Under the pieces are notes generated by a model. The model was not told the origin of the DNA. It did no database searches and saw nothing but the letters and a program-made list of their open reading frames with translations. 43,045 bases of DNA from Pseudomonadota bacterium (GTDB taxonomy: Bacteria > Desulfobacterota > Desulfobacteria > Desulfobacterales > RPRI01), in NCBI GenBank assembly GCA_018901125.1, contig JAHIFE010000153.1, forward strand, positions 1-43,045, written 5' to 3'. This document shows positions 12,799 through 32,267 of this stretch, one piece after another. Each line of letters begins with the position of its first letter. Position 1 is the stretch's first letter. A program made the position numbers and the translations under genes.

Positions 12799-12823
12799 TC
12801 ATTAAAACACGAAAGGTATGCAC

Positions 12824-13642
12824 ATGTCTGAAATCGGTGAATGTATTGCTTTTGCCAACTACAAGGGCGGTACGGGTAAAACAACTTCCTGCTTGAGTCT
12901 TGCCGGGTTTCTTGCCAAAGGCGGCAGCAAGGTTCTCTTAATAGATTTTGATCCTCAGGCAAGCGCCACTTCGGGTATTGGTATTGACAAGCTTACGGTA
13001 AAGCGCTCTGTATATGATTCCATTCTAAGTCTTTGTAATGGCTATGAAGTAGTGCCGTTAAGAAATGTCATACTGGAAACAGATGTGGAAAATCTCCATC
13101 TTGTGCCATCGGAATGGGACCTCTCCGCTGCCGAGGTAAGTATGCAGAACACAAGGGACAAAATCACTTTACTCCGTACGTTAATTCGGAGTATCCAATC
13201 TATGTATGATTATATTCTAATTGATACGCCTCCCAGTTCAGGGTTGTTGCTGCTGAATTGTTTTGTTGCAGCAGATCACATGATTATCCCTTTTGATCCC
13301 GGCATATTTTCTGTAGAAGCCATTGACAATCTCAAAGCCGCATTTCTCGATGTCAAGCGCAATACCGGTCATCATTTTAATAAGATCACGATTCTCCTTA
13401 CCCGATATGTTGGACAGGACCCAATAGAAAGAATATTACACGGCGATAACCCGTCCCGCCAAGTCAGGAAATTGCTGTTAAGAATGTTCAAGTCTGTTTT
13501 TGTTGTTCCGGAGTCGCCGGAAATTTACCGATCACAACAGAAAGGGATTCCGATCTCTCATTACGCGCCAAAAAGTAAGGCCGGTAAAGCCTATAAGATA
13601 ATTGCTGATGCAATAAAAGATGAAACAAAACTGTCTAATTGA
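12824..13642 (+). CDS. ParA/MinD-family partition ATPase at the head of a chemosensory cluster
   Basis: This 272-aa protein has the deviant Walker A KGGTGKTT with signature Lys14 and Lys19, the Walker A' segment [11 protein letters not shown], and Walker [10 protein letters not shown]. These are ParA-family features. ParA ATPases form dynamic patterns on the nucleoid or at the pole. No parB or parS-like gene lies nearby. In other bacteria ParA paralogues inside che operons (PpfA of Rhodobacter, ParC of Vibrio) position chemoreceptor arrays, and I infer the same role here because the next gene is a soluble receptor. GAAAGG seven bases upstream favours ATG 12824 over ATG 12818. Confidence 0.9.
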
Positions 13643-13659
13643 CAAAGGAAGGTAAGATT

Positions 13660-16600
13660 ATGGGAACCACTGATAAAGAACGTAAACCTGGAAGATCTGT
13701 TTTCTTCCCGGATAAAGAAGAAAAAAACAATGTTGCTGTGAGCGAGGTTGGCTTTATGAATGACGCAAGCAAAGACACATCAAACCGGCACCACACCAGT
13801 GATTATCAATTGATGGCGCTTTTAAACGCGCTCAAGGCGGTAAGAGAAGGTGATTTCACCGTACAGCTGGATTTTGGCCAAGACGGAATCATGACCGATA
13901 TTGCTGCTGCGTTTAATGATATCAACAAATTAAACAAGAATTTATCCAATGATATTGTGCGTGTAAGCAGGATTATCGGTGATGAAGGGAACGTGACAGA
14001 GCGTGTTTCCATCGGGTCGGCGGCAGGTTCATGGAATACCAGCATTGAATCTGTAAATTCTCTCATCGATTATCTTGTCCAACCGACAGAAGAATTCGGC
14101 CGTGTTATCAGCAGTGTTGCCGAAGGGAACCTGGACAAAAAAATGGCGTTAGAAATAGACGGAAGGCCGTTAAAAGGTGAATTCTTAAAGATCGGCAACA
14201 GAGTCAACACAATGGTTGACCAGTTGAGCAGTTTTGCTTCAGAAGTAACCCGTGTGTCCAGAGAGGTCGGTACTGACGGAAAACTTGGCGGCCAGGCACA
14301 AGTCCCAGGGGTAGCCGGTACATGGAAGGATTTGACAGATAACGTCAATGCCATGGCGGCAAGCCTTACCTCGCAGGTGCGCGATATTGCCAGGGTGACC
14401 ACTTCGGTCGCAAATGGCGATCTATCACAAAATATCACCGTTGAAGCTCAGGGAGAGATCCTGCAGCTAAAAGAAACCATCAACAGGATGGTAGACCAGT
14501 TAAGCAGCTTCGCCTCGGAAGTAACCCGTGTTTCGAAAGAGGTCGGTATAGAAGGTAAGCTTGGTGGCCAGGCGCAGGTAAAGGGTGTTGCCGGTGTATG
14601 GAAAGACTTAACAGATAACGTGAATGCCATGGCGGGAAGCTTGACTTCCCAGGTGCGCGATATCGCCGTTGTCACCACTGCTGCTGCAACCGGAGACCTC
14701 ACTAAGAAGATTACCGTTGATGTAAAAGGCGAGATGCTTGAACTCAAAAACACGATAAACAAAATGGTGGAAAATCTGAGTACATTCGCATCAGAGGTCA
14801 CAAGGGTTGCCAGAGAAGTCGGTACAGAAGGCAAGCTTGGCGGCCAGGCAGAGGTTCCCGATGTAGCCGGCACTTGGAAAGACTTAACGGAAAACGTAAA
14901 TGCCATGGCGGTGAGCTTAACATCTCAGGTTCGTGACATCGCAAAGGTAACAACGGCTGTAGCCATGGGCGACCTTTCCCAGAAGATTACCGTTGATGTA
15001 AAAGGTGAGATGCTTGAACTCAAAAACACAATAAACAAGATGGTGGATAATCTGAATACTTTTGGTTCGGAGGTTACAAGGGTGTCAAGGGAGGTCGGTA
15101 CGGACGGAAAACTCGGTGGCCAGGCAGAAGTAAGTGGTGTGGGCGGAACATGGAAGGAGTTGACTGAAAACGTAAACATGATGGCGGCAAACCTTACAAA
15201 TCAGGTAAGAAACATTGCCGTTGTTACCACTGCGGTTGCAAGCGGAGACCTCTCTCAGAAAATTACCGTTGAGGCAAAAGGAGAGATCCTTCAACTAAAG
15301 GATACAATAAACAAGATGGTTGACCAGTTGAGCACATTTGCTTCAGAGGTTACAAGGGTGTCAAGGGAGGTCGGCACGGACGGCAATCTTGGCGGCCAGG
15401 CGGAAGTAAGCGGTGTGGGCGGAACATGGAAGGAGTTGACTGAAAACGTAAACATGATGGCGGCAAATCTTACAAATCAGGTAAGAAACATTGCCGTTGT
15501 TACCACTGCGGTTGCAAGCGGCGACCTTTCCCAGAAGATTACCGTTGAGGCAAAAGGGGAAATCCTTCAACTGAAGGATACAATAAACAAGATGGTTGAC
15601 CAGTTAAGCACCTTTGCTTCAGAGGTTACAAGGGTGTCAAGGGAGGTCGGTACAGACGGCAAGCTTGGCGGCCAGGCGCAGGTAAAGGATGTTGCAGGCA
15701 CATGGAAGGAGCTTACTGAAAACGTAAACATGATGGCGGCAAACCTTACAAATCAGGTAAGAAACATTGCCGTTGTTACCACTGCGGTTGCAAACGGCGA
15801 CCTTTCCCAGAAGATTACCGTTGAGGCAAAAGGGGAAATCCTTCAACTGAAGGATACAATAAACAAGATGGTTGACCAGTTAAGCACCTTCGCATCAGAG
15901 GTCACAAGGGTGTCAAGGGAGGTCGGCACGGACGGTAAGCTTGGCGGTCAGGCAGATGTAAAGGATGTGGGTGGCACATGGAAGGAGCTTACTGAAAATG
16001 TAAATATGATGGCGGCAAACCTTACAAATCAGGTAAGAAACATTGCCGTTGTAACTACCGCCGTTGCAACCGGCGATCTATCCCAGAAGATTACCGTTGA
16101 TGTAAAAGGAGAAATGCTTGAACTTAAAGATACAATAAACAAAATGGTGGATAATCTGAATACCTTCGCATCAGAGGTCACAAGGGTTGCCAGAGAGGTT
16201 GGTACAGACGGAAAACTTGGCGGCCAGGCACAAGTCCCCGGAGTTGGCGGTACATGGAAAGACTTAACGGACAACGTTAACGCTATGGCAGGAAGCCTTA
16301 CCTCGCAGGTGCGTGATATTGCCAAGGTTACGACTTCGGTTGCAAACGGCGACCTTACCCAGCAGATCACCGTTGAGGCAAAGGGGGAAATTCTCCAATT
16401 AAAGGAAACCATAAACAAAATGGTTGACCAGTTAAAAAGCTTTGCCGGTGAGGTAACCCGCGTGGCTAGGGAGGTTGGTACGGACGGCAAGCTTGGCGGC
16501 CAGGCACAGGTAAAGGACGTCGCAGGTACATGGAAGGAATTGACGGACAATGTCAATATGATGGCGGCCAATCTTACCAGCCAGGTCCGCAATATCGCCG

Positions 16601-18402
16601 TCGTCACAACGGCTGTTGCAAACGGCGAGCTTACCCAGCAAATCACCGTTGAGGCAAAGGGGGAAATTCTCCAATTAAAGGAAACCATAAACAAAATGGT
16701 TGACCAGTTGAGCACTTTCGCAGGCGAGGTAACCCGCGTGGCCAGAGAGGTTGGTATCGAGGGCAAGCTTGGCGGCCAGGCGGAAGTGAAGGGGGTTGGC
16801 GGAACATGGAAGGAATTAACGGATAATGTAAACATGATGGCGGCCAATCTCACCAGCCAGGTTCGTAACATTGCCGTAGTTACAACAGCAGTTGCAAACG
16901 GCGAGCTTTCTCAGAAAATTACTGTTGAAGCCAGCGGTGAAATTCTTCAGTTGAAAAATACGATAAACGGAATGGTTGATAACCTCAATATCTTTGCCGG
17001 CGAGGTAACCCGTGTAGCCGGGGAGGTTGGAAGTGACGGGAAATTGGGTGGCCAGGCCCTGGTTCCGGGTGTAGCCGGAACATGGAAGGAACTGACAGAC
17101 AACGTTAACGCTATGGCGGCAAGCCTTACCTCGCAGGTGCGCGATATTTCACGAGTCACCATAGCAATTGCAGAGGGAGATCTTTCTCAGAAAATCACCG
17201 TTGAAGCCCGCGGTGAAATTCTCGAACTTAAGAACACGATAAATGGCATGGTGGACAGCCTCAACAGCATTATCGGTGACATCAATGCCGTAATGTATAT
17301 GGTTGGCGATGGCGTACTCTCGCGGATGATTGAAGTTAAAGCGTCAGGAGAATTCGCCTCCATGGTTGACGGAATCAACAGTACCATAGAAAGCCTTAAA
17401 GGTATCGTCTCGGAACTCCGTGAAGCGGGTATAAACATTGGTTCGGTATCTCAGAAAACATTGAGTGCAGGCCAGGAAATGAATGCCCTGTTGTCGCAAC
17501 TTTCCGGTACTATTGAACAGATAGCGGATGGGGCAAAGGCCCAGGCTCAGCAAATTGTAGAAGCATCCAGGGAGAGTGAGGGCGTAGGAAAAACGGCTTC
17601 CAATACCCTGACCCAGGCGGAAAGCATGAACCAGTATACAGAGGTAGCCAATAAGGCAACGGGCGAAGGCAGCAAAGCCATGGAAGAAACTATCAAGAAC
17701 ACGGATTTGATGCTTGAAGGTTCAAACGAATCCGTAGGAAGAATTGAGTCACTCAGCAAAAGCAGTGAACAGATCCAGGAAATTGTTGATGTTATCCGCG
17801 ACATTGCTACCCAGACAAATATCCTTGCTATCAATGCCGCAATCGAAGCCGTTCGCGCCGGTAAGCAGGGGAAGGGCTTTGCAGTTGTAGCCGAAGAAGT
17901 CAAGACCCTGTCCGCAGACAGTAAATCACAGGCAAAAATGATCTCGACACTTGTCCAGTCGGTTATGAGAGAGACACAGGATACGGCGCTAACGATCAAA
18001 ACTATGGCCGGTAATGTAAGACTTGTAAAAAGTTCTATCGAATTGACATCAAGAACTTTCAAGGACATTAACCGTTCTATTGATGTTACATCAGGCACAT
18101 CAAGGGAAATATCGGTAGCCGCCGCTGATCAGAAGAACAGCATCGATGCGGTTTCACAGAGTCTTGATAAGATCAGTGGTATTGCTGCCGATACATCTAC
18201 CTCAGCCACACAGTCGGCGGAAGGCTCCAAAAGGCTGTTGGGCAAGATGCAGGAGCTAACGGCTATTGCCACAAACCTTGCCGATATGTCTGAAAAGTTC
18301 CAAAAGACCGTGGAACGATTTACGGTTGAGGACGTGGTAGCACAAAGAGTGACAAGTAAAATGAACATGAATAATGTAGCAAAGGCAAATGCGAAAATCT
18401 GA
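13660..18402 (+). CDS. Soluble poly-HAMP methyl-accepting chemotaxis protein
   Basis: This 1580-aa receptor has no transmembrane segment or signal peptide, so it should be cytoplasmic. After a hydrophilic N-terminus and a first diverged HAMP-like stretch, residues 186-1197 are eleven consecutive 92-residue units, each with GTWK[DE]LT[DE]NVN and GE[IM]L[QE]LK.TIN motifs. This is the HAMP-tandem type known from fungal Nik1 kinases and bacterial hybrid kinases. A last diverged HAMP follows, then the MCP coiled-coil with the hairpin tip [21 protein letters not shown] near 1383-1403. The tip is where CheA and CheW dock. GGAAGG seven bases before ATG 13660 supports this start over TTG 13639. It follows parA by 17 bp. 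Confidence 0.93.
14215..17250 (+). repeat. Eleven tandem 276-bp units inside the poly-HAMP receptor gene
   Basis: The coding sequence repeats with a 276-bp period from GTT at 14215 to ATG at 17250, giving eleven units with no indels. Units 4 to 7 (15043-16146) are the most alike at DNA level and share long identical tracts, such as the stretch encoding [21 protein letters not shown]. Other units differ mainly in synonymous positions. Recent duplication or gene conversion in the middle of the array is likely. The repeats also create periodic antisense open frames, which are artefacts. Confidence 0.92.
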
Positions 18403-18454
18403 AAGAAAGGTTCGTGATGCCATACATTTGACAAAAAATAGAGAGGGGCAAAAC

Positions 18455-19000
18455 ATGCAGGAGCAGGTTATAAATGACGAGATCGAGGCGGAAGAGGTAG
18501 AACAGGACCAGTATCTTGTTTTCAAGGCGATGTCCCAGGAGTTCTGTGTTAAGGCAATGTGGGTTCAGGAAATCTCAAGACCACTGGAATTGACACAGGT
18601 TCCAAATTCTTCCTCTTATATTGACGGCGTTGCCAATCTGCGGGGCAGGTTATCCACGGTTATTAATTTTCGTAAAAAAATCGGGTTTGAAGCAAAACCG
18701 CATGACGAGGAAACCCGTATCATCGTTATTGAGCACAAGGGGTTTCCAATAGGAATGACGGTGGATTCCGTTGAAGAGGTAATAAAAATCCCTGATGGTT
18801 TGGTGCATCTACTTCCCGAATCAGCAAGCGGCATGACAGAAAACGAACCGATAACCGGGATCGGCATGCTGCACAAAAGAATGGTTATCATGCTGGATAT
18901 CAAAAAGCTTCTTGAGGGAACCGCAATGCCCAATTTTGAAAAGATTAAACAGGCCCTCGACATCCAACAGACCGAAGGAGAGGGAATCGGTCAACAATAA
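18455..19000 (+). CDS. cheW: CheW-type coupling protein
   Basis: CheW links receptors to the CheA kinase. The 181-aa protein has a short acidic N-terminal tail and then one CheW domain: QYLVFKAMSQEFCVKAMWVQEI, PNSSSYIDGVANLRGRLSTVINFR and GFPIGMTVDSVEEVIKI. These fit the SH3-like beta-barrel layout. An in-frame ATG at 18389 overlaps the receptor gene, but AGAGGGG six bases before ATG 18455 makes the latter the likely start. Confidence 0.93.
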   Translation: MQEQVINDEIEAEEVEQDQYLVFKAMSQEFCVKAMWVQEISRPLELTQVPNSSSYIDGVANLRGRLSTVINFRKKIGFEAKPHDEETRIIVIEHKGFPIGMTVDSVEEVIKIPDGLVHLLPESASGMTENEPITGIGMLHKRMVIMLDIKKLLEGTAMPNFEKIKQALDIQQTEGEGIGQQ

Positions 19001-19058: not shown

Positions 19059-19421
19059 ATGGCAAAGATCATGATTGTAGATGATGCATCTTTTATGAGG
19101 AGTTCGTTAAAATTTATCGCAGAAAAGTATGGACACACGGTTGTCGGTACTGCTTCGGACGGTAAAGAGGCGGTAGATCTCTATAAAAAAATTCAGCCTG
19201 ATATTGTAACTCTTGATATTCTGATGAGAGATCTGGACGGCATTTCCACATTGAAGCTGCTGCTCAAGCAGGACCCCCAGGCAAAGATTATCATGGTAAC
19301 TGCTATGGGGCAGGAGACAAAACAGGAAGAGGCAAGAAAAATCGGTGCGTTAGGTTATATAAGAAAACCATTCAAACCGGAAGATATAGTGGCAGAGATT
19401 GCGAGGATATACGGAGAATGA
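19059..19421 (+). CDS. cheY: CheY-like response regulator (intact)
   Basis: This single-domain receiver of 120 aa has all active-site residues: Asp8 and Asp9 (IMIVDDA), phospho-acceptor Asp53 (VTLDIL), Thr in MVTAMG and Lys in RKPF. It should accept phosphate from the CheA encoded two genes downstream. A strong AAGGAGG lies upstream of the ATG. The protein is clearly paralogous to the degenerate receiver at 22502-22870. Confidence 0.93.
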   Translation: MAKIMIVDDASFMRSSLKFIAEKYGHTVVGTASDGKEAVDLYKKIQPDIVTLDILMRDLDGISTLKLLLKQDPQAKIIMVTAMGQETKQEEARKIGALGYIRKPFKPEDIVAEIARIYGE

Positions 19422-19444
19422 ATGATGGCAGGAGCCGGTATGAT

Positions 19445-20464
19445 ATGATCAGAGTACTTATAGTCGATGATTCGAGCTTCATGAGAAAGTCCATATCCTA
19501 TCTCCTGAAGACTGATCCGGCGATAGATGTTGTGGACACCGCTGATAACGGTGAGGAGGCCGTGCTGAAGGTGAAGGAACACCGGCCCGATGTAGTACTT
19601 CTCGATATTGCCATGCCCATGATGGATGGACTTGACGCCCTTACGTATATTATGGCGGAGTGCCCGACTCCGGTTCTGATTTTAAGCGGGGTTGACAAAA
19701 GGGATATGACCGTTGTTCTTAAATCCCTCCGGTTAGGGGCTGTGGATTACATACAGAAGACAAAAGGTGAAATATCCTATGATATAGATATGATAAGGGA
19801 TGAAATTATCAACAAAGTTCATATAGCGGCAAAAGCCCATGTCAGTAGAATCGGATACAGTATGCCAGAAGAATCGTATGTGCTTGGAAAGGGCAAAAAA
19901 GCAGCGGGGAAAAAGATGGTTGTCATCGGCGCCTCGACGGGTGGGCCAAACGCAACTGCCGTCGTACTTTCAGGTATCCCTTCCTCCGTTACCGCATGTA
20001 TTCTGGTTGTTCAGCATATGGACAAAGAGTTTACACCTTTTTTCGCGGCACACCTGAAGGGAGAGTGCTCCCTTAATGTTTCATTGGCCAAAGACAATGA
20101 CATCATAAATCCGGGCAATATATTCGTTGCTCCAGGTGGAGTGCAAACCGGCATTATAGAAGACGGCATGCATAAAAGAATTCGGCTGAGCGGCAAGCCT
20201 GGTAAATTGCAATCCATAGATTACACCATGGAATCTGCAGTCATGGCCTATGGCGGAGATGTTGTAGGCGTACTTCTCACCGGTATGGGCAGTGACGGCG
20301 CCAAGGGTTTACAGGCAATCAGTAAGGCTGGTGGAACTACGATTGTACAGGACGAGTCAACATGTGTGGTCTTTGGCATGCCAAAAGCGGCCATTGCGCT
20401 GGAATGTGTTGATACAGTGGCGCCTCTGCAAGATATAGCAAAGACAATTATGAAAGTTATTTAG
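19445..20464 (+). CDS. cheB: CheB protein-glutamate methylesterase/deamidase
   Basis: CheB removes methyl groups from receptor glutamates and is activated by phosphorylation. The N-terminal receiver has DD at 8-9 and Asp54. A linker leads to the methylesterase domain with catalytic triad candidates Ser164 (GASTGG), His191 (VVQHM) and Asp284 (GMGSDGA), spaced as in Salmonella CheB. ATG 19445 has AGGAG ten bases upstream. ATG 19418, overlapping the cheY stop, has GGAG only one base away and is less likely. No cheR accompanies it. Confidence 0.94.
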   Translation: MIRVLIVDDSSFMRKSISYLLKTDPAIDVVDTADNGEEAVLKVKEHRPDVVLLDIAMPMMDGLDALTYIMAECPTPVLILSGVDKRDMTVVLKSLRLGAVDYIQKTKGEISYDIDMIRDEIINKVHIAAKAHVSRIGYSMPEESYVLGKGKKAAGKKMVVIGASTGGPNATAVVLSGIPSSVTACILVVQHMDKEFTPFFAAHLKGECSLNVSLAKDNDIINPGNIFVAPGGVQTGIIEDGMHKRIRLSGKPGKLQSIDYTMESAVMAYGGDVVGVLLTGMGSDGAKGLQAISKAGGTTIVQDESTCVVFGMPKAAIALECVDTVAPLQDIAKTIMKVI

Positions 20465-20477
20465 GAAATATTTGCTT

Positions 20478-22418
20478 ATGTCAGACACAGATAAAATAGA
20501 TTTAGCAATATTTATGGAAGATTATCTCTCCGACGCCAAGGAAGGTTTTCAGGAGGCGAACCGGACACTTCTTGCTCTTGAGAAAGACTATACCAGAAAA
20601 GATCATCTGAATAATATATTGAGGATTTTCCATACGTTAAAAAGTTCTTCCAGTATGCTTAATTTAACTGATATCATTGACTTTGCACACCGATGCGAAG
20701 ACTTCATCAGCCGTCTCATAAAACAGGAAATCCCGGTCGATAAGAATACGGTGGATTTTCTCTTTGAAGTCAATGATGCCATGGAAGCCATTGTCAAAGA
20801 AAGAGCGGTACAGGGGGGGGAGAAAAAACTATCCGACGCGACTCAGAAACTGGTTCAAACGATCCTGGAAAAAATGACCTATCTTGAGTCCAAGGAAGAG
20901 CTTTCCCGTCTGGGGATCATCGTTATTAATCAAAAGGGTATTATTGAATCTTTTAACCCTGCCGCGGAACTGATATTCCAATATCCATCTTCCGAAGTCG
21001 TCGGTCAGAATGTAAAAATGCTGATGCCGGAGCCTTACCATGAGAATCATGACACCTATCTTGAGCATTATTTCAAAAACGGTAATGCGGGAGACACAAG
21101 CGCCGGACGCCATGTGCACGGTCTTCGCAGGAACAAAACCACCTTCCCTATGGAATTGGCATTAAGTGACTTACATTTGGGCGAGAGGCATTTATTGATC
21201 TGGGTCGTAAAGGATGCATCCGTTTATGCGATTAAGCGAAATACTGTCTCGGAAATTGAAAAGATACAAACCGTTAAAATTCATGTTGATCTTATTGACG
21301 CTCTTTTTAACCTTGTTGGTGAACTGATTATTTCCCGAAACCGTCTTAACAACCTTGTTGCGGATATTCTGACCAAAGATATGAAGAATGTCATGATCTC
21401 CTTGAACCATATCATAACAGAACTTCAGGAGAAGGTTTCTTCTGCGCGTATGGTGCCTGTGGAGGAAATCTTTCAGAAATTTCCGAAAATGGTCAGGGAT
21501 ATTGCTCTGGAAAAACTAAAAGAGATAGAAATGCTTGTCGAAGGCAGCGATACGGAACTGGATAAAAGCGTCCTGAATGAAATCGGCCAACCTTTGATGC
21601 ATTTACTCCGAAATGCTGTAGGCCATGGAATAGAATCACCGGAAGTGCGGGAGCAGAACAAAAAAGGAAGACGGGGACTCATCAAGCTTTCGGCAAAACA
21701 AACGGAAAATCAAATCTTAATCGAAGTGGAAGATGATGGATCGGGAATTGATGTGGAAGCCATGAAGGAGATAGCGATAAGAAAAAACCATATCACTTTG
21801 GAAGAAGCCGGGAACATGCAGGAAAAAGATATTCTTTACATGCTTTTTAAACCGGGTTTCAGCAGTACGTTGGAGGTAACGGGGCTTTCAGGAAGAGGGG
21901 TAGGACTGGATATCGTAAAGACAGCCACAGAAAAACTTGGCGGGACGGTGGAGATATCCACCCGGAAGGGTGCCGGCACTCGCTTTTCCCTGAAGCTGCC
22001 GATTGCTCAGGCAATCATGCAGACATTGATGATCGGTGTCGGCAAGCATGTTTTTCTCGTGCCGTCCAATTCGGTGCTGGAGACGATGGAAGTCAAGAAA
22101 GAAAACATCAAAATGGTCGGAAAGCGGGAAGTATTCATCCTGCGAAATGAAGCCATTCCGTTCGTCAGGTTGAAAAAGCTATTGAATATAGACGCCGGGG
22201 AACAGGATAATACCCGGGTGGTTGTTATTATCTACCGGGGGGATAATTTTGTTGCCGTAGGTGTCGATGCCGTAGTTGACCAGATGGAAAACATCATTAA
22301 ACCTTTTGACACGATAGCTCAGACGTTCAAGGGTTTTTCGGGAGGCACGATTTTGCCGGATGGGAGTGTTGCCCTCCTCCTCGATATGACAAAGCTATTT
22401 GACTTAGAAACATTATAG
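20478..22418 (+). CDS. cheA: CheA histidine kinase with an embedded FixL-like PAS domain
   Basis: This 646-aa protein has an Hpt (P1) domain with phospho-His52 (RIFHTLKSSS). A PAS domain at about 140-250 replaces the usual P2. Then come the P3 dimerisation helices (LIDALFNLVGELIISRNRL), the P4 ATPase with N box HLLRNAVGHGIE (Asn379), G1 EDDGSGID and G2 GRGVGLDIVK, and a CheW-like P5. The PAS reads VGQNVKMLMPEP, then HDTY (His191) and GRHVHG (Arg211), closely matching FixL heme-PAS landmarks. In the N box the usual Asp (AxDHG) is Gly, but the essential Asn is kept. ATG 20478 is preferred over TTG 20472. Confidence 0.93.
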   Translation: MSDTDKIDLAIFMEDYLSDAKEGFQEANRTLLALEKDYTRKDHLNNILRIFHTLKSSSSMLNLTDIIDFAHRCEDFISRLIKQEIPVDKNTVDFLFEVNDAMEAIVKERAVQGGEKKLSDATQKLVQTILEKMTYLESKEELSRLGIIVINQKGIIESFNPAAELIFQYPSSEVVGQNVKMLMPEPYHENHDTYLEHYFKNGNAGDTSAGRHVHGLRRNKTTFPMELALSDLHLGERHLLIWVVKDASVYAIKRNTVSEIEKIQTVKIHVDLIDALFNLVGELIISRNRLNNLVADILTKDMKNVMISLNHIITELQEKVSSARMVPVEEIFQKFPKMVRDIALEKLKEIEMLVEGSDTELDKSVLNEIGQPLMHLLRNAVGHGIESPEVREQNKKGRRGLIKLSAKQTENQILIEVEDDGSGIDVEAMKEIAIRKNHITLEEAGNMQEKDILYMLFKPGFSSTLEVTGLSGRGVGLDIVKTATEKLGGTVEISTRKGAGTRFSLKLPIAQAIMQTLMIGVGKHVFLVPSNSVLETMEVKKENIKMVGKREVFILRNEAIPFVRLKKLLNIDAGEQDNTRVVVIIYRGDNFVAVGVDAVVDQMENIIKPFDTIAQTFKGFSGGTILPDGSVALLLDMTKLFDLETL

Positions 22419-22455
22419 GAAAGGGGATATACGGCATGAAAAATAATTCAAAAGT

Positions 22456-22479
22456 CAGGAATCGGAATTCCGGTTCCTG
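22456..22479. repeat. 24-bp near-perfect palindrome between cheA and the degenerate receiver gene
   Basis: CAGGAATCGGAA is followed immediately by TTCCGGTTCCTG. The two halves are reverse complements except for one T/G pair. It overlaps a possible 20-codon reading frame (ATG 22436 to TGA 22496) that has its own AAAGGGG upstream. It could be an operator or an mRNA hairpin that tunes expression within the operon. There is no T-run after it, so it is not an intrinsic terminator. Confidence 0.6.
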
Positions 22480-22501
22480 CATTTTCAGGAGGTATTGAAT
22501 T

Positions 22502-22870
22502 ATGGCAAGAATGATTATTGTAGACAGCTCAGCATTCATGAGAGGTGCTCTGAAGTTTATTGTTGAGAATTTCGGAAATGAAGTTATCGGCAGTACGGAC
22601 ACAGGCCAGAACGCAATTGAACTATGCACGGAACTAAAACCCGATATGTTGATTATAGAAATTTCAATCCGTGAGGGGATGGATGGAATCACCACGATGA
22701 AGGAACTGAAAAAAATTAACAATAGAATATTGGTCATCGTGACATTTGCTCCGGGAGAGGAAAACCTCGCGGAAGACGCTAAAACTGCCGGTGCGGTCGG
22801 ACAGATAAGCAAACCGTTTTTAGCAAAAAATATTGGCGAAGAACTTGGTAGGATATTAAAGAGTAAATAA
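22502..22870 (+). CDS. Degenerate CheY-like receiver (phospho-Asp replaced by Glu)
   Basis: This 122-aa receiver aligns end to end with the CheY at 19059-19421, for example FMRGALKFIVENFGNEVIGS against FMRSSLKFIAEKYGHTVVGT. At the phosphorylation site Asp53 is Glu53 (LIIEIS), and the acidic pair is DS instead of DD (Asp8, Ser9). Thr (IVTFA) and Lys (SKPF) remain. It therefore probably cannot be phosphorylated in the usual way and may mimic the active state or act as a structural adaptor. It has AGGAGG upstream and lies 83 bp after cheA. Confidence 0.88.
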   Translation: MARMIIVDSSAFMRGALKFIVENFGNEVIGSTDTGQNAIELCTELKPDMLIIEISIREGMDGITTMKELKKINNRILVIVTFAPGEENLAEDAKTAGAVGQISKPFLAKNIGEELGRILKSK

Positions 22871-22891
22871 TCAGCCCTGGGAGGAAAAACC

Positions 22892-23818
22892 ATGAAATGG
22901 TTTATCGATATATCAACAAGAAATAAGCTTTTTGCCGGATTTGGCATGATGATACTGATAACTGTAACAGTGAGCATTTTATCATATGTTAGTATTACGG
23001 GATTACATAATACACTTGTAAAACTTTTTGAGGCCGAAGTGCCATTGTCTTTGGAAATTGTTAAATCCAAAGCCGATATGAGCATGGAAAGAATGATCCT
23101 GGCCAGAATGATGGAAACAAATATACGTTCAGACCTGGATCTGCTGATGAATAATATAAAAGAAAACGACAAATCAATAAACTCGAAAATAAAAACGGTT
23201 GAGGAACTTGGCAACGGTAATGCGGATTACATGAAACTGATCGATCAATTGGTGGCTGCAAGAAAGGAATTTATAACGATTCGCGATACAAAAACAATAC
23301 CGCTTGTTTATGCGGGGAAGAATACCGAGGCAAAGAAGTATTTTTTCGGCACACAATTTGAGCAGTACGAAAAAATTATGGATATAGTAGCCAATCTCAG
23401 TAAACTGTCTGAGCAGTCCGATAGGGCGCTTATGCAGGTATCGGCACAAAAGGTAAGAGATGCTTTCATTCTCTTTTTGTTCGTCGGTTTTGTTGGGGTT
23501 AGTGTCGGGTTGATCATGGCTCTTTACTTAACGATGATTATCGCCCGTCCTCTCAAAGAAATCACTGAAATCGCAGAAAAGATCGCTTACGGAGACCTAA
23601 CCGTTCGTTTACCGCCGGCTCAGCGGGCCGATGAGGTTGGCAACCTCCTGCTCTCTTTCGGCATGATGGTGGAAAGTCAGAAAATGATGACGAAAGAAAT
23701 CAGCGATACCGTTGATGTTTTGGCTGAACACGCTGCCAGACAGACAGATGCGGAAGCCCATGGTCTTAATTCTCTTGTGCAAAAACTTAAAGGGTTGGTT
23801 ACGCAGTACAAAATATGA
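22892..23818 (+). CDS. Membrane chemoreceptor lacking the signalling hairpin (4HB-HAMP only)
   Basis: This 308-aa protein has TM1 at about 13-35, a periplasmic helical region at 36-190 like the four-helix-bundle MCP ligand domain, TM2 at 191-217, and a HAMP domain at 217-268 (RPLKEITEIAEKIAYGDLTVRL, then DEVGNLLLSF). After HAMP there is only a short helix, ending LVQKLKGLVTQYKI, which looks like the last residues of a full MCP. The roughly 250-residue coiled-coil hairpin is absent. The frame is intact and a strong GGGAGG precedes the ATG, so this is an organised short gene. It may pass its signal to a partner. Confidence 0.88.
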   Translation: MKWFIDISTRNKLFAGFGMMILITVTVSILSYVSITGLHNTLVKLFEAEVPLSLEIVKSKADMSMERMILARMMETNIRSDLDLLMNNIKENDKSINSKIKTVEELGNGNADYMKLIDQLVAARKEFITIRDTKTIPLVYAGKNTEAKKYFFGTQFEQYEKIMDIVANLSKLSEQSDRALMQVSAQKVRDAFILFLFVGFVGVSVGLIMALYLTMIIARPLKEITEIAEKIAYGDLTVRLPPAQRADEVGNLLLSFGMMVESQKMMTKEISDTVDVLAEHAARQTDAEAHGLNSLVQKLKGLVTQYKI

Positions 23819-23909
23819 ACGTAGTCCGTTAATTTCATGTTTTTTTGCCCCGCAGGATTATGGGGTTTATTCAAAGTATAACATCAGTACATAAATGAGG
23901 AGTTGAACC

Positions 23910-24545
23910 ATGACAAATAATATACTTACGCCGGAGCAGTTCGATTATTTAGAAGAGATGATGAATATCGGGGCCGGCAACGCCGCTACTGCTCTGGAGC
24001 AGTTCCTCAAAAGCAAGTTTGATATGTGCATGCCTATCATCCACGCAATTGTACCCCATAAAGCCTTTTCAGTCATTGGCGATCCTGCTCAGACGGTAAC
24101 CTGCGTTAAGATGAATATGATTGGTGACTGCACGGGAAAGATGTTTTTTGTTGTTCCTCAGAAACAGCAGGAGAGACTCGAAAATATAGCCATACATTCT
24201 GATGGGTTAGAAATAAAGAACAGTGATAAATCCGGCATATCGGTTGTTGAAGAGATTGGCAATATCCTTGCCGGTGTTTATCTTACGTCAATCCATGATT
24301 TATGCAGACTGAACATCTACCATACCATTCCGGTTGCCGCAACCGATATGGCACAAGCCGTTCTGGATGAAACCATTGCAATGATGAGCGCTAAAAGCGA
24401 GCTGCTGATTATTATAGTCAACAAATTTCTGGCGGCTGAACAGGATGAGGCGATTGATACCTATTTAATCATGATTCCCGACGTAAATTCGCTGAAAACG
24501 CTTACCGATTCTATCCGGGAGGCGAACAGACTTGTCCGTGGATAA
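23910..24545 (+). CDS. cheC: CheC-type CheY-phosphate phosphatase
   Basis: CheC dephosphorylates CheY-P and is stimulated by CheD. The 211-aa protein has two copies of the family helix motif with conserved Glu and Asn: EEMMNIGAGNAATAL near 15-29 and EEIGNILAGVYL near 115-126. Each is followed about 20 residues later by a Pro (MPIIHAIVP, YHTIP). This is the two-site CheC pattern, not the one-site CheX or FliY form. Its end overlaps the cheD start. Confidence 0.9.
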   Translation: MTNNILTPEQFDYLEEMMNIGAGNAATALEQFLKSKFDMCMPIIHAIVPHKAFSVIGDPAQTVTCVKMNMIGDCTGKMFFVVPQKQQERLENIAIHSDGLEIKNSDKSGISVVEEIGNILAGVYLTSIHDLCRLNIYHTIPVAATDMAQAVLDETIAMMSAKSELLIIIVNKFLAAEQDEAIDTYLIMIPDVNSLKTLTDSIREANRLVRG

Positions 24546-25098
24546 ACGTATTATTGTTAATATGGGAGAAGGGGCGGTAAGAAGGGCGCCTGCGGTTATT
24601 GCCTCTGTCGGGCTGGGTTCCTGTGTAGTATTGATGCTCTATGACCCAGGACCGCGTATCGGAGGACTGGCACACATACTGCTGCCCAACTCGCCTGTTC
24701 ATTCATCAGGTGAATGCGGGCAACGGTACCCGGACAATTGGAAAAGACAGCGGGGGGAAAACATTGCTCCCCCGGATAAACCTGTTTACCTCTATGCCGA
24801 TACCGCTCTCATAGCTCTTTTTAAGGAAATGACATGCATGGGGGCTTCTTCGTTCAATATTTACGCTATGATTGCCGGCGGGGCCAGGATGTTTTCCGAG
24901 GATGAACCGTCCGTAAACGGCATGGGAGCAAGAAACATTATGAGTATCAAGAAGCTTTTGAAAAGAGAAAAGATATCCGTCATTGGTGAGGATACAGGCG
25001 GCAGTCAGGGAAGGAGTGTTGATTTCCATCTGGATTCAGGCCGGGTTATGGTTAGAACCATCGGAGGGTCTATCAGGGAGATCATCGATAATGTATGA
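24532..25098 (+). CDS. cheD: CheD receptor glutamine deamidase
   Basis: CheD deamidates receptor glutamines and binds CheC. The 188-aa protein has the catalytic Cys in SVGLGSCVVLMLYDP, the His in GGLAHILLP, and the Thr in YADTAL, plus the FNIYAMIAGGARMF and IGEDTGGSQGRSVDFHLDSG blocks. It uses TTG at 24532 with GGGAGG nine bases upstream inside cheC, which suggests translational coupling. The stop overlaps the next gene's ATG. Confidence 0.93.
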   Translation: MSVDKRIIVNMGEGAVRRAPAVIASVGLGSCVVLMLYDPGPRIGGLAHILLPNSPVHSSGECGQRYPDNWKRQRGENIAPPDKPVYLYADTALIALFKEMTCMGASSFNIYAMIAGGARMFSEDEPSVNGMGARNIMSIKKLLKREKISVIGEDTGGSQGRSVDFHLDSGRVMVRTIGGSIREIIDNV

Positions 25099-29486: not shown

Positions 29487-30458
29487 ATGACAACAAAGGG
29501 TTTAATGAGAAAAAAAGAGATTCTTATAAATAGTCTTATAAATGACAGGATAAAGTATCTTCGGGAAAACACCGATTTTGTGTCCGCCGTCTTTGACAGC
29601 CTCATCGGGTATGCGATCATTGCCTCGGATTTCGACGGTAACATCATAGCATACAATGAAGGGGCGCATCATATATATGGCTATGTCCCCGACGAGGTCA
29701 TAGGCAGAAAAAATATCGAGGTTTTTTTCCCGGTAGAGTTTATCGCACAAGGCCGCTTTCAAATGGTTGTTTCCGAACTTCTCGAAAAGGGACGGGTTGC
29801 CTGTGAGGCGGAAAAGGTCCGCAAGGATGGATCTATATTTCCGGCCCGGATACTCTTTACCCTGACAACCGACAAAAATGGCCGAAACGTTGGTTTTGTC
29901 GAAATTGCTGAGGATCTGACGGAACGTAAATTGGCGGAAGAACTGACCCAGCAGGCACGGGAGAACGCGGCACGCGTAGAGCGGCTGGAGACGGAATTGC
30001 GTTCCCTGGCCGACCTTTCTTCCCCTCCCCCAACCGGTGTGACAGCCCGGATGTACGGCGTGGTGAGTTTGCAGGGCGGGTTCCCCGATACCTTCCGCAA
30101 GCTTACGGAAAATTATGCAGAGCTGATTGACCTGGCTCTGGAGCAGCAAGCCTACAAAGTTGATCATGATATATCCGGACGTCTTGGCGCAATGGCCGAA
30201 ACTCTCGGTTTTTACAGGGCTGGGCCGCGTGATGTCGTTGATATCCACACAACCGCGCTGAAGAAGAAAAGCCGGGCGGCCGCTACCATAGAAAAAAAGA
30301 AGGCATATAGCGGAGAAGGATGGATCATGGTCCTGGAACTGATGGGATATCTGGTGTCGTTCTATCGCAACCGTGCGCAGGGCACAGTCACCCTCCCAAA
30401 TCAACAAACGGAAAGTAAAAACAAGACTGTAGATACAAAGGAGGAAGAAAATGAATAA
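29487..30458 (+). CDS. PAS protein with a KaiA/RsbU-like helical C-terminal domain
   Basis: Residues 24-148 of this 323-aa protein are a PAS domain very similar to PAS1 of the upstream histidine kinase. A coiled coil at about 150-178 follows. Residues 200-297 are a helical domain that I can align by eye with the KaiA C-terminal four-helix bundle of Synechococcus: [11 protein letters not shown] with [23 protein letters not shown] with SQVLEIHMELMDT, and [14 protein letters not shown] with LIDVIAHLCEMYRRS. The DVVxIH motif also occurs in RsbU N-domains, which share the KaiA/RsbU fold. Its end overlaps kaiB by 8 bp. I infer a KaiA-like regulator of KaiC. ATG 29505 is an alternative start with AAAGGG just upstream. 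Confidence 0.72.
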
Positions 30459-30756
30459 GTTCAAGTTACGGTTGTACATCACCGGAAAAACGCCAAAATC
30501 GGAGCGCGCCATCGCGAACCTGAAAGAAATTTGCGAAAATGAACTGGACGGTCTCTATGAACTCTCGATCATAGATGTTCTTGAGAGTCCCCAACTTGCA
30601 GAGGATGAAAAGATTCTCGCCACGCCGACCTTGATCAAAGACCTGCCGCCGCCCCTCAAGCGGATCATCGGCGATCTATCCGATTCGGATAAGGTCCTCC
30701 TCGGGCTCGACCTTTTGCCTGCTATGGACAATACAAAAAAAGGAGATAAACGATGA
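30451..30756 (+). CDS. kaiB: Circadian clock protein KaiB
   Basis: KaiB is a small thioredoxin-like, fold-switching protein that binds KaiC. The 101-aa protein matches cyanobacterial KaiB along nearly its whole length: [50 protein letters not shown] and [16 protein letters not shown] lies shortly before the ATG. It overlaps the KaiA-like gene by 8 bp and kaiC by 4 bp, so the three products are probably made together. Confidence 0.95.
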
Positions 30757-32267
30757 ATGAGATCGAAGTCGGAATTGGCATAGAAAAAATCGAGACAGGC
30801 ATTGAAGGATTCGACATGATCAGTGAGGGCGGGCTTCCGAAAGGGCGGACCACACTGATTGCCGGCACCTCAGGAAGCGCCAAGACAGTATTTGCCGTCC
30901 AGTTTCTTTCCGAAGGGATCATCAAAAAAGATGAGCCGGGGGTTTTTGTCACCTTCGAAGAGCCGCCTGGGGATATCCGCAAGAACGTGATCTCGTTGGG
31001 TTGGGATGTGGCCAAGTGGGAGCAGGAAGGGAAATGGGCCTTTGTGGATGCCTCTCCTGTAGTGGGAGAAGATCATATCATTGCCGGAGAATACGACCTC
31101 GGGGCGCTGCTGGCCCGCATCGAATATGCGGTGCAAAAGATCGGTGCCCGTCGGATCAGCATGGATTCCCTCGGGTCGATCTTCGGAAGGTTCACCGAAC
31201 CGGGACTTGTGAGAAATGAACTCTTCAAAATTGCCGCAGCAGTGAAACAGATGGGTGTAACCGCCATCATCACAGCCGAGCGCACCCATGAATACGGAGA
31301 TATCGCGCGGTTCGGCATCGAAGAGTTTGTCGCCGACAACGTGATTATCCTGCGCAATGTCCTTGAGTCGGAAAAACGCCGCCGCACCATGGAGATCCTC
31401 AAATTCCGCGGCACCAGCCACCAGAAGGGGGAATACCCCTTTACGGTGATCAAGAACGTCGGCATTGTTGCCATACCGCTGTCGGGAATTGAACTGAAAC
31501 AGCGCTCTTCCACCGTCCGCATCAGCTCCGGAAATATCGATATAGACAAGATGTGCGGTGGCGGGTTTTTCCGTGACTCGATCATTCTGGTATCCGGAGC
31601 CACGGGATGCGGGAAGACGATGCTTTCCGCCGAGTTTGCCGCTGACGCCACGAAAAACGGGGAACGGGCTCTGCTGTTGGCCTTTGAGGAAAGCCGGGAG
31701 CAGCTTTTTCGCAATGCAAATGGCTGGGGCATTGACTTTGAAAAGATGGAGAATGATGGTATTCTCAAGGTGGTATGCCGATACCCGGAAGCGGAAGGGC
31801 TGGAGGATCATCTGATTCTCATCAAGAGCATCATCCGTGACTTCAAACCCCACCGGGTGATCGTTGATTCACTCTCTGCGCTGGAGCGCGTTTCTACCGT
31901 AAAGGGGTTCCGTGAATTTGTTATCGCTCTCACCTCCTTCATTAAACATCAGGAAGTTGCGGGACTCTTCACATCAACCACCGGCGAACTCATGGGAGGA
32001 ACGTCGGTTACGGAGGCGCACATTTCCACCATTACCGACACAATTATCCTACTGCGCTACGTGGAGATGTTCGGAGAAATGCGCCGCGGGATCACGGTGC
32101 TAAAGATGCGTGGCTCCATGCACGATAAGGATATACGGGAGTTCAATATTGACGGCAAAGGCATGCATATCGGCAAGGCGTTCAGCAATGTTACCGGAAT
32201 ACTCTCAGGCCATCCTGTTTTTTCCGCGCCCGAGGAAGTTGACCGGGTGAAAGACCTTTTTAAATAG
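30753..32267 (+). CDS. kaiC: Circadian clock ATPase/kinase KaiC (double domain)
   Basis: This 504-aa protein has the two RecA-like domains of KaiC. CI has Walker A GTSGSAKT (Lys44) and the catalytic EE pair at 69-70. CII has Walker A GATGCGKT (Lys288) and EE at 312-313. The autophosphorylation pair Ser425/Thr426 ([10 protein letters not shown]) and the neighbouring Thr420 are kept, so phosphorylation cycling is possible. The C-terminal tail is about 15 residues shorter than in Synechococcus KaiC but keeps a helical [11 protein letters not shown] end where KaiA would bind. In CI the last Gly of Walker A is Ala, a variant I believe is common in this family. Confidence 0.96.

Follow-up and report, generated by a model that had tools for sequence, protein, structure and literature searches.

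A chemoreceptor lacking the signalling hairpin, kept beside a CheY-like protein without its phosphorylation site in two distant bacteria

The stretch of DNA analysed here, positions 1 to 43,045 of contig JAHIFE010000153.1 from a Pseudomonadota bacterium (assembly GCA_018901125.1) and referred to as the window, carries within a chemosensory gene cluster two adjacent genes on the forward strand, one for CheY2, a single-domain pseudo-receiver (22502-22870), and one for a short receptor of the methyl-accepting chemotaxis protein (MCP) type that has no signalling hairpin. The open reading frame (ORF) of the receptor starts with ATG, spans 22892-23818 and encodes a 308-residue protein in which a transmembrane (TM) segment, a four-helix bundle (4HB), a second TM segment and a HAMP domain follow one another. 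Pfam (E≤0.001) identified 4HB_MCP_1 at residues 7-176 (22910-23419) and HAMP at residues 213-262 (23528-23677), with nothing past HAMP and no match to MCPsignal (PF00015), and hydropathy identified two hydrophobic segments, at residues 12-39 and 187-221; the TM-4HB-TM-HAMP head assigned by the initial annotation is thereby confirmed. Beyond HAMP, alignment and shuffle tests identify a HAMP-proximal stub from the N arm of the MCP hairpin (residues 263-278; 23678-23725) and a retained C-terminal MCP tail, LNSLVQKLKGLVTQYKI (residues 292-308; 23765-23815), and the alignment places between them a 13-residue junction (residues 279-291; 23726-23764) where 250 hairpin residues would otherwise stand. 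An AlphaFold model built from a two-sequence alignment (mean pLDDT, the predicted local distance difference test score, 59) contains helices at residues 248-282 and 288-305; given the weakness of the model, these helices are compatible with a closed stump and are no evidence for one.

The extent of the loss was measured against full-length relatives in a phylum sample of 395 genomes, in each of which at most five candidates were scored, with a match cut-off of E≤1e-12. Matches to the short receptor were found in 28 genomes, and the best eight beyond those of the window's own genome and of G299, a genome which also carries the short form, were longer receptors of 28-33% identity with open frames of 511-604 residues. 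These eight were aligned and seven were used for counts, as the C-terminus of the relative from G482 is disrupted. In all seven, 250 residues separate two anchors that have 13 residues between them in the window protein, and in all seven the hairpin arms have the same lengths, the glutamate of the tip lying 127 residues beyond the V-x-x-L-A motif that follows HAMP and 124 residues before the leucine of the tail; the loss is therefore nearly symmetric, the far part of both arms having gone and the HAMP-side ends having been left. The tail scored 36.6 against the seven tails of the relatives, a value reached by none of 200,000 shuffles of the post-HAMP sequence (z 6.2); among 1,737 internal 17-mers taken from the cytoplasmic regions of these relatives, the highest score was 15. 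The score of the stub was also reached by none of 200,000 shuffles (z 5.1). A tail likeness by chance is ruled out by the shuffles. The initial annotation had described a hairpin of roughly 250 residues as missing with the frame intact, and a C-terminus like that of full-length MCPs, and both descriptions hold in these alignments. It had also proposed an alignment with full-length 4HB MCPs of the same genome; such an alignment was made with the relatives from other genomes, the MCPs of the same genome being poor comparators. Six MCPsignal proteins were found in the window's genome, where a two-sequence profile of the short form at E≤1e-5 matched only the short receptor itself, and the single short-receptor query gave three further matches at E≤1e-3.

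The form in G299 is an orthologue of equal length (C31, 121179-122102), 61% identical end to end (1-308), on a contig named by a scan of genome_contigs as MGQB01000031.1 of Deltaproteobacteria bacterium RBG_13_43_22. In the stub REISD is aligned with KEISD, VDVLAE is found in both proteins, and the tail in G299 reads LNSLAQKLKGLIEQYKI. A deletion confined to the window genome is ruled out by this equally short orthologue. In a midpoint-rooted tree of the head region (20 rows), the two short proteins group together (100/100) as sister to nine full-length proteins (98/97), forming a clade of 11 (99/97); because the proteins in the nine remaining rows are likewise longer, the short state appears to be derived and to have arisen once within this sample. 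The question of whether orthologues carry the hairpin, on which the initial annotation had made its claim depend, is answered by the sole orthologue found, which is equally short, while the hairpin-bearing proteins are more distant and form the sister group under the midpoint root. In summary, the short receptor has the TM, periplasmic sensor, TM and HAMP head of an MCP, and its descent from MCPs is indicated by the homology of stub and tail and by the head tree, but Pfam and the alignment identify no MCPsignal hairpin with a CheA/CheW-binding tip. On this sequence evidence it is an MCP descendant that lacks the defining feature of its family.

Directly upstream, CheY2 has a receiver domain (PF00072, E 1.8e-17; E 6.5e-24 against the solved CheY 6er7) in which alignment to 6er7 and 1tmy indicates that the acceptor Asp is replaced by E53, the second acidic Asp by S9 and the Thr/Ser by F82. 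D8 and K104 are kept, leaving two of the five residues of the active-site quintet intact, so that CheY2 has the domain of a CheY response regulator but not its active site and lacks key phosphotransfer residues, as bacterial pseudo-receivers are defined in the available text of PMC12632262. The G299 protein is 71% identical, carries the identical three active-site replacements and also lies directly upstream of the short receptor; the order of CheY2 and receptor is kept in both genomes, with a spacing of 21 bp in the window and 26 bp in G299. This CheY-like partner without a phosphorylation site, kept upstream of the receptor in both genomes, was not part of the initial annotation. A receiver search (E≤1e-18) in all six genomes that carry the cluster or parts of it, with 150 of 190 candidates scored in G210, found besides CheY2 just the cluster's own CheY1, 39-42% identical, and a 17-row tree places CheY2, at low support, among the CheY1 proteins.

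Selection on the pair was estimated with a Nei-Gojobori script from the gene pairs of the window and G299. The ratio of nonsynonymous to synonymous substitution rates (omega) is ~0.21 for the whole short-receptor gene (synonymous divergence, dS, 1.3) and 0.24 for its post-HAMP part alone (dS 1.2), synonymous sites of the HAMP part alone being saturated; for CheY2 it is 0.10 at a near-saturated dS of 2.0 and for CheY1 0.16 (dS 1.15). These coding-sequence ratios show purifying selection, which has kept both the short receptor and CheY2 between the two genomes. The initial annotation had raised a clean in-frame loss of the hairpin and a deliberately short sensor, not a decayed gene, and this agrees with an orthologue 61% identical that is equally short, has the same tail and has been under purifying selection. 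GC content is 0.409 for CheY2 and for the short receptor, with 0.427 for the window; codon use and GC of the pair are close to those of the neighbouring genes, and GC dips to 0.345 over 400 bp at 22800-23199.

Further short forms are rare. Within the phylum sample the short form is present in two of 395 genomes, those of the window and G299, and among the five genomes of the class of G299 it occurs in one. A class sample of 389 genomes held no additional short form, the sole other match being a 549-residue frame in G210. Frames of 302, 352 and 385 residues in G306, G458 (C36) and G563 are, by their coordinates, cut by contig ends, the matches stopping 82, 60 and 306 bases away, and a match in G335 has a 359-residue frame with two stops. 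Among the matches listed for 58 genomes of the same genus or order, a 312-residue frame in G017 gives a 304-residue protein without the LNSLVQKLKGLVTQYKI tail, frames of 392-393 residues in G001 and G036 give 385-residue proteins that start with an unrelated Cys-rich segment, and a 413-residue frame in G040 contains a run of unread bases. The scan of genome_contigs covered 84,980 species by a pattern-based method that reaches close relatives only and may exclude the window's own record; with the short form it returned MGQB01000031.1 and one HAMP-level match in Caenibacillus, and anchored on CheA it returned no relative. The short form had no match in viral_contigs and two records among plasmids, at 24.7% and 39.4% identity, and PADLOC gave no match.

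The pair lies within a run of genes on the same strand, which begins with a ParA-type ATPase (AAA_31, 12818-13642) and continues through a poly-HAMP receptor with an MCPsignal domain (13639-18402), CheW (18389-19000), CheY1 (19059-19421), CheB (19418-20464) and CheA with Hpt, PAS, kinase and CheW domains (20472-22418) to CheY2, the short receptor, CheC (23910-24545) and CheD (24532-25098), all assigned by Pfam. After CheD follow a PAS kinase, a receiver, a receiver-kinase-GGDEF protein, a PAS protein, KaiB (30451-30756, NCBIfam) and KaiC (30753-32267, Pfam and NCBIfam). CheY1, by alignment a receiver with the usual active-site residues, is the closest paralogue of CheY2 in the window genome. 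The poly-HAMP receptor has no TM-like hydrophobic segment (maximum 19-residue hydropathy 1.1 in the window and 1.04 in G299), and its ORF length varies between genomes, at 1587 residues in the window, 1482 in L075 (13256-17704) and 1758 in L113 (7521-12797), as if HAMP repeats had been gained or lost. A nearly complete set of the cluster is present in G299, with identities of 81% for the poly-HAMP receptor, 68% for CheA and 92% for KaiC, the last being far more conserved than CheA. In G005, of the same genus, 11 of the 14 cluster proteins other than the pair are more than 83% identical, and the poly-HAMP receptor, CheW and the receiver-kinase-GGDEF protein are at 76-82%. Parts of the cluster occur in G181 and G210 of the same order and in G406 of the same phylum, where no KaiB or KaiC match was found in the 16 kb read. 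A FliG_C match in all six cluster genomes makes a flagellar output possible. Next after the pair in G299 comes a CheR gene (L100, 14307-15176); among the 23 window proteins searched, Pfam identified no CheR.

It had been suggested at the outset that short orthologues be sought beside poly-HAMP receptors, and each of the two short copies does have this one cluster, poly-HAMP receptor included, on its contig. CheA of the cluster (E≤1e-95) is found in three of the 395 genomes, both carriers of the pair included. As the window genome was the query, only G299 is informative for the association; with the window genome excluded, co-occurrence by chance would be about 2 in 394, a figure that ignores descent and joint transfer.

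The position of the pair between cheA and cheC differs among the genomes. In G005 these two genes lie 11 bp apart and the alignment jumps from window position 22414 to 23886, so that a segment of ~1,471 bp (22415-23885) with CheY2 and the short receptor is missing at the junction. In G406 cheA adjoins cheC, the gap in G299 is 168 bp and has no long ORF in the three forward frames, and the G210 contig stops after CheA. The junction in G181 holds an unrelated ORF of the 23S-rRNA-intervening-sequence type (PF05635; L077, 5331-5717) with short repeated motifs around it, and may therefore be an insertion spot. From these alignments we infer that the window lineage probably acquired the pair between cheA and cheC, with loss in G005 as the alternative. 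No flanking repeats of at least 12 nt were found around the segment (22350-24000), although shorter target duplications would escape this search, and an insertion by a visible mobile element is left unsupported. Upstream of CheY2 an imperfect 36-nt palindrome (22450-22485), found by a repeat search, is a possible operator; no copy was obvious by eye upstream of the G299 pair.

Chemoreceptors are understood as controlling CheA through the hairpin tip. The short receptor would derive from a full-length 4HB receptor from which most of the signalling hairpin was removed at an equal level of both arms, leaving a membrane sensor, a HAMP domain and a predicted stump formed by the two HAMP-proximal hairpin ends; docking of CheW or CheA by the usual tip would then be impossible. 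Because the receptor cannot control CheA in this way, its output would be contact made by HAMP or the stump. A periplasmic stimulus may thus change HAMP and the stump and, through them, protein partners, of which CheY2 is the first candidate, since it is the conserved neighbour and, having no phosphorylation chemistry, must act by binding. With three of the five phosphorylation-site residues lost and Glu at the acceptor position, CheY2, a CheY1-like receiver, probably acts by binding. The pair might then bias the circuit of CheY1, CheC, CheD and the poly-HAMP receptor without a kinase or phosphotransfer step of its own. This raises the possibility, for which the chances appear even, that output-less receptor and pseudo-receiver form a two-gene accessory module that tunes the cluster by protein contacts and not by kinase docking or phosphotransfer. 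That the pair is in addition a dedicated kinase-free branch, by which a periplasmic signal enters the Kai-linked cytoplasmic cluster through direct contact of receptor and pseudo-receiver, is a tentative extension and rather doubtful.

Several observations weigh against the accessory module. The place of the pair within the cluster is not fixed: its neighbours in G299 are CheR and a T2SSE/MshEN-type ATPase, with kaiC 7 kb upstream of it and the end of cheA ~12 kb away. CheY2 and the short form were both unfound in four of the six cluster genomes (G005, G181, G210 and G406), and the cluster therefore exists without the module, albeit with some doubt as these are draft genomes. Two members of the short form have been found, in phylum searches that scored just the best 3-5 candidates per genome; the contact between the receptor and CheY2 is a predicted one; support for grouping CheY2 with the CheY1 proteins is weak (85/79); and the structure model, at its low pLDDT, gives nothing firm on the stump.

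The same absences bear on a different arrangement, in which the cytoplasmic poly-HAMP receptor would have its missing sensor in the membrane-bound short receptor. The two would touch by way of HAMP or the bundle, or else the short receptor would pair with full-length 4HB receptors in mixed dimers, and the signal would reach the shared CheA in trans. The short protein has a sensor and no output, the parts kept are HAMP and the HAMP-proximal ends, and the cluster receptor is without a TM-like segment in both genomes; nevertheless, a split receptor of this kind is unlikely, since no short receptor was found in those four genomes, CheY2 is left unexplained, and the ParA beside the cytoplasmic receptor suggests nucleoid positioning, off the membrane, as in the PpfA/TlpT case in so far as the available text describes it (PMC3964821). 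It is also improbable that the pair acts as a buffer or in a dominant-negative manner, the receptor soaking up ligand or receptor subunits while the Glu-bearing CheY2, as a mimic of CheY-P, ties up CheC/CheD or the motor target. The location of cheC and cheD directly downstream favours such a role, and Asp to Glu at the acceptor position is described as common among pseudo-receivers in the available text of PMC12632262. However, the same text indicates that Glu may act through binding the conserved Thr and Lys, and CheY2 has Phe at the Thr position (F82), so that a phosphomimetic effect is uncertain.

A drifting remnant, that is, a former receptor-CheY pair heading for loss, would account for the patchy distribution, with no close match in 58 other genomes (9 of the same genus and 49 of the same order; best E 3.2e-15), and for the absence of the pair at the corresponding junction of G005. 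This is very unlikely, given that the length, the tail and the active-site changes are kept at 61-71% identity across two families of the phylum, that omega is 0.1-0.2 between the two genomes and that overall GC and codon use are near those of the neighbours despite the local dip. An artefact of assembly or gene calling, for which it may be said that the window genome is a draft of 241 contigs, is scarcely credible when the independent genome G299 carries an equally short form and G005 aligns cleanly across the flanking junction. The accessory module is the reading adopted here: retention of the pair in two distant bacteria points to a sensor unit that would act via partners and not via the kinase. 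Retention of a receptor without a tip and of a CheY without a phosphosite implies that HAMP with a stump, and a pseudo-receiver, can be useful alone. The pair is a small natural system for asking which targets, other than an output fused to it, a HAMP domain can address and how pseudo-receivers are regulated, the switching of bacterial pseudo-receivers being called a mystery in the available text of PMC12632262.

Among known systems, the full-length 4HB MCPs (TM-4HB_MCP_1-TM-HAMP-MCPsignal) have in common with the short receptor the head, HAMP, the post-HAMP stub and the C-terminal tail, the nearest being ~30% identical, but they possess the MCPsignal hairpin where the short receptor has 13 residues for 250. 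To our knowledge, neither a short receptor nor KaiBC is among the parts of the PpfA/TlpT cytoplasmic chemoreceptor cluster. The likeness to that cluster is a ParA-like ATPase gene adjoining a cytoplasmic chemoreceptor, and the term poly-HAMP does not occur in the available text of the paper (PMC3964821). In a literature search of titles and abstracts, with little subscription coverage, no account was found of a pseudo-CheY that accompanies an output-less MCP. As a receiver, CheY2 is closest to the CheY1 of its cluster and, among solved structures, to CheY 6er7, and its pairing with an output-less receptor is not met in the available text on pseudo-receivers (PMC12632262). In the CetA/CetB energy-taxis receptor, as described in the available text of PMC2628428, the functions of a receptor are likewise divided over two co-transcribed genes, but there a PAS protein partners a membrane protein that has retained its signalling domain, the opposite design to a short receptor with a pseudo-receiver; Pfam identifies in the present pair neither a membrane HAMP protein with a signalling domain nor a separate PAS protein. 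GlnX of Corynebacterium glutamicum, on the available text of PMC9769921, differs in having two 4HB modules, no HAMP and the kinase PknG as its effector; nevertheless, like the short receptor, it is a membrane 4HB sensor with no known output domain, and it acts via a separate protein.
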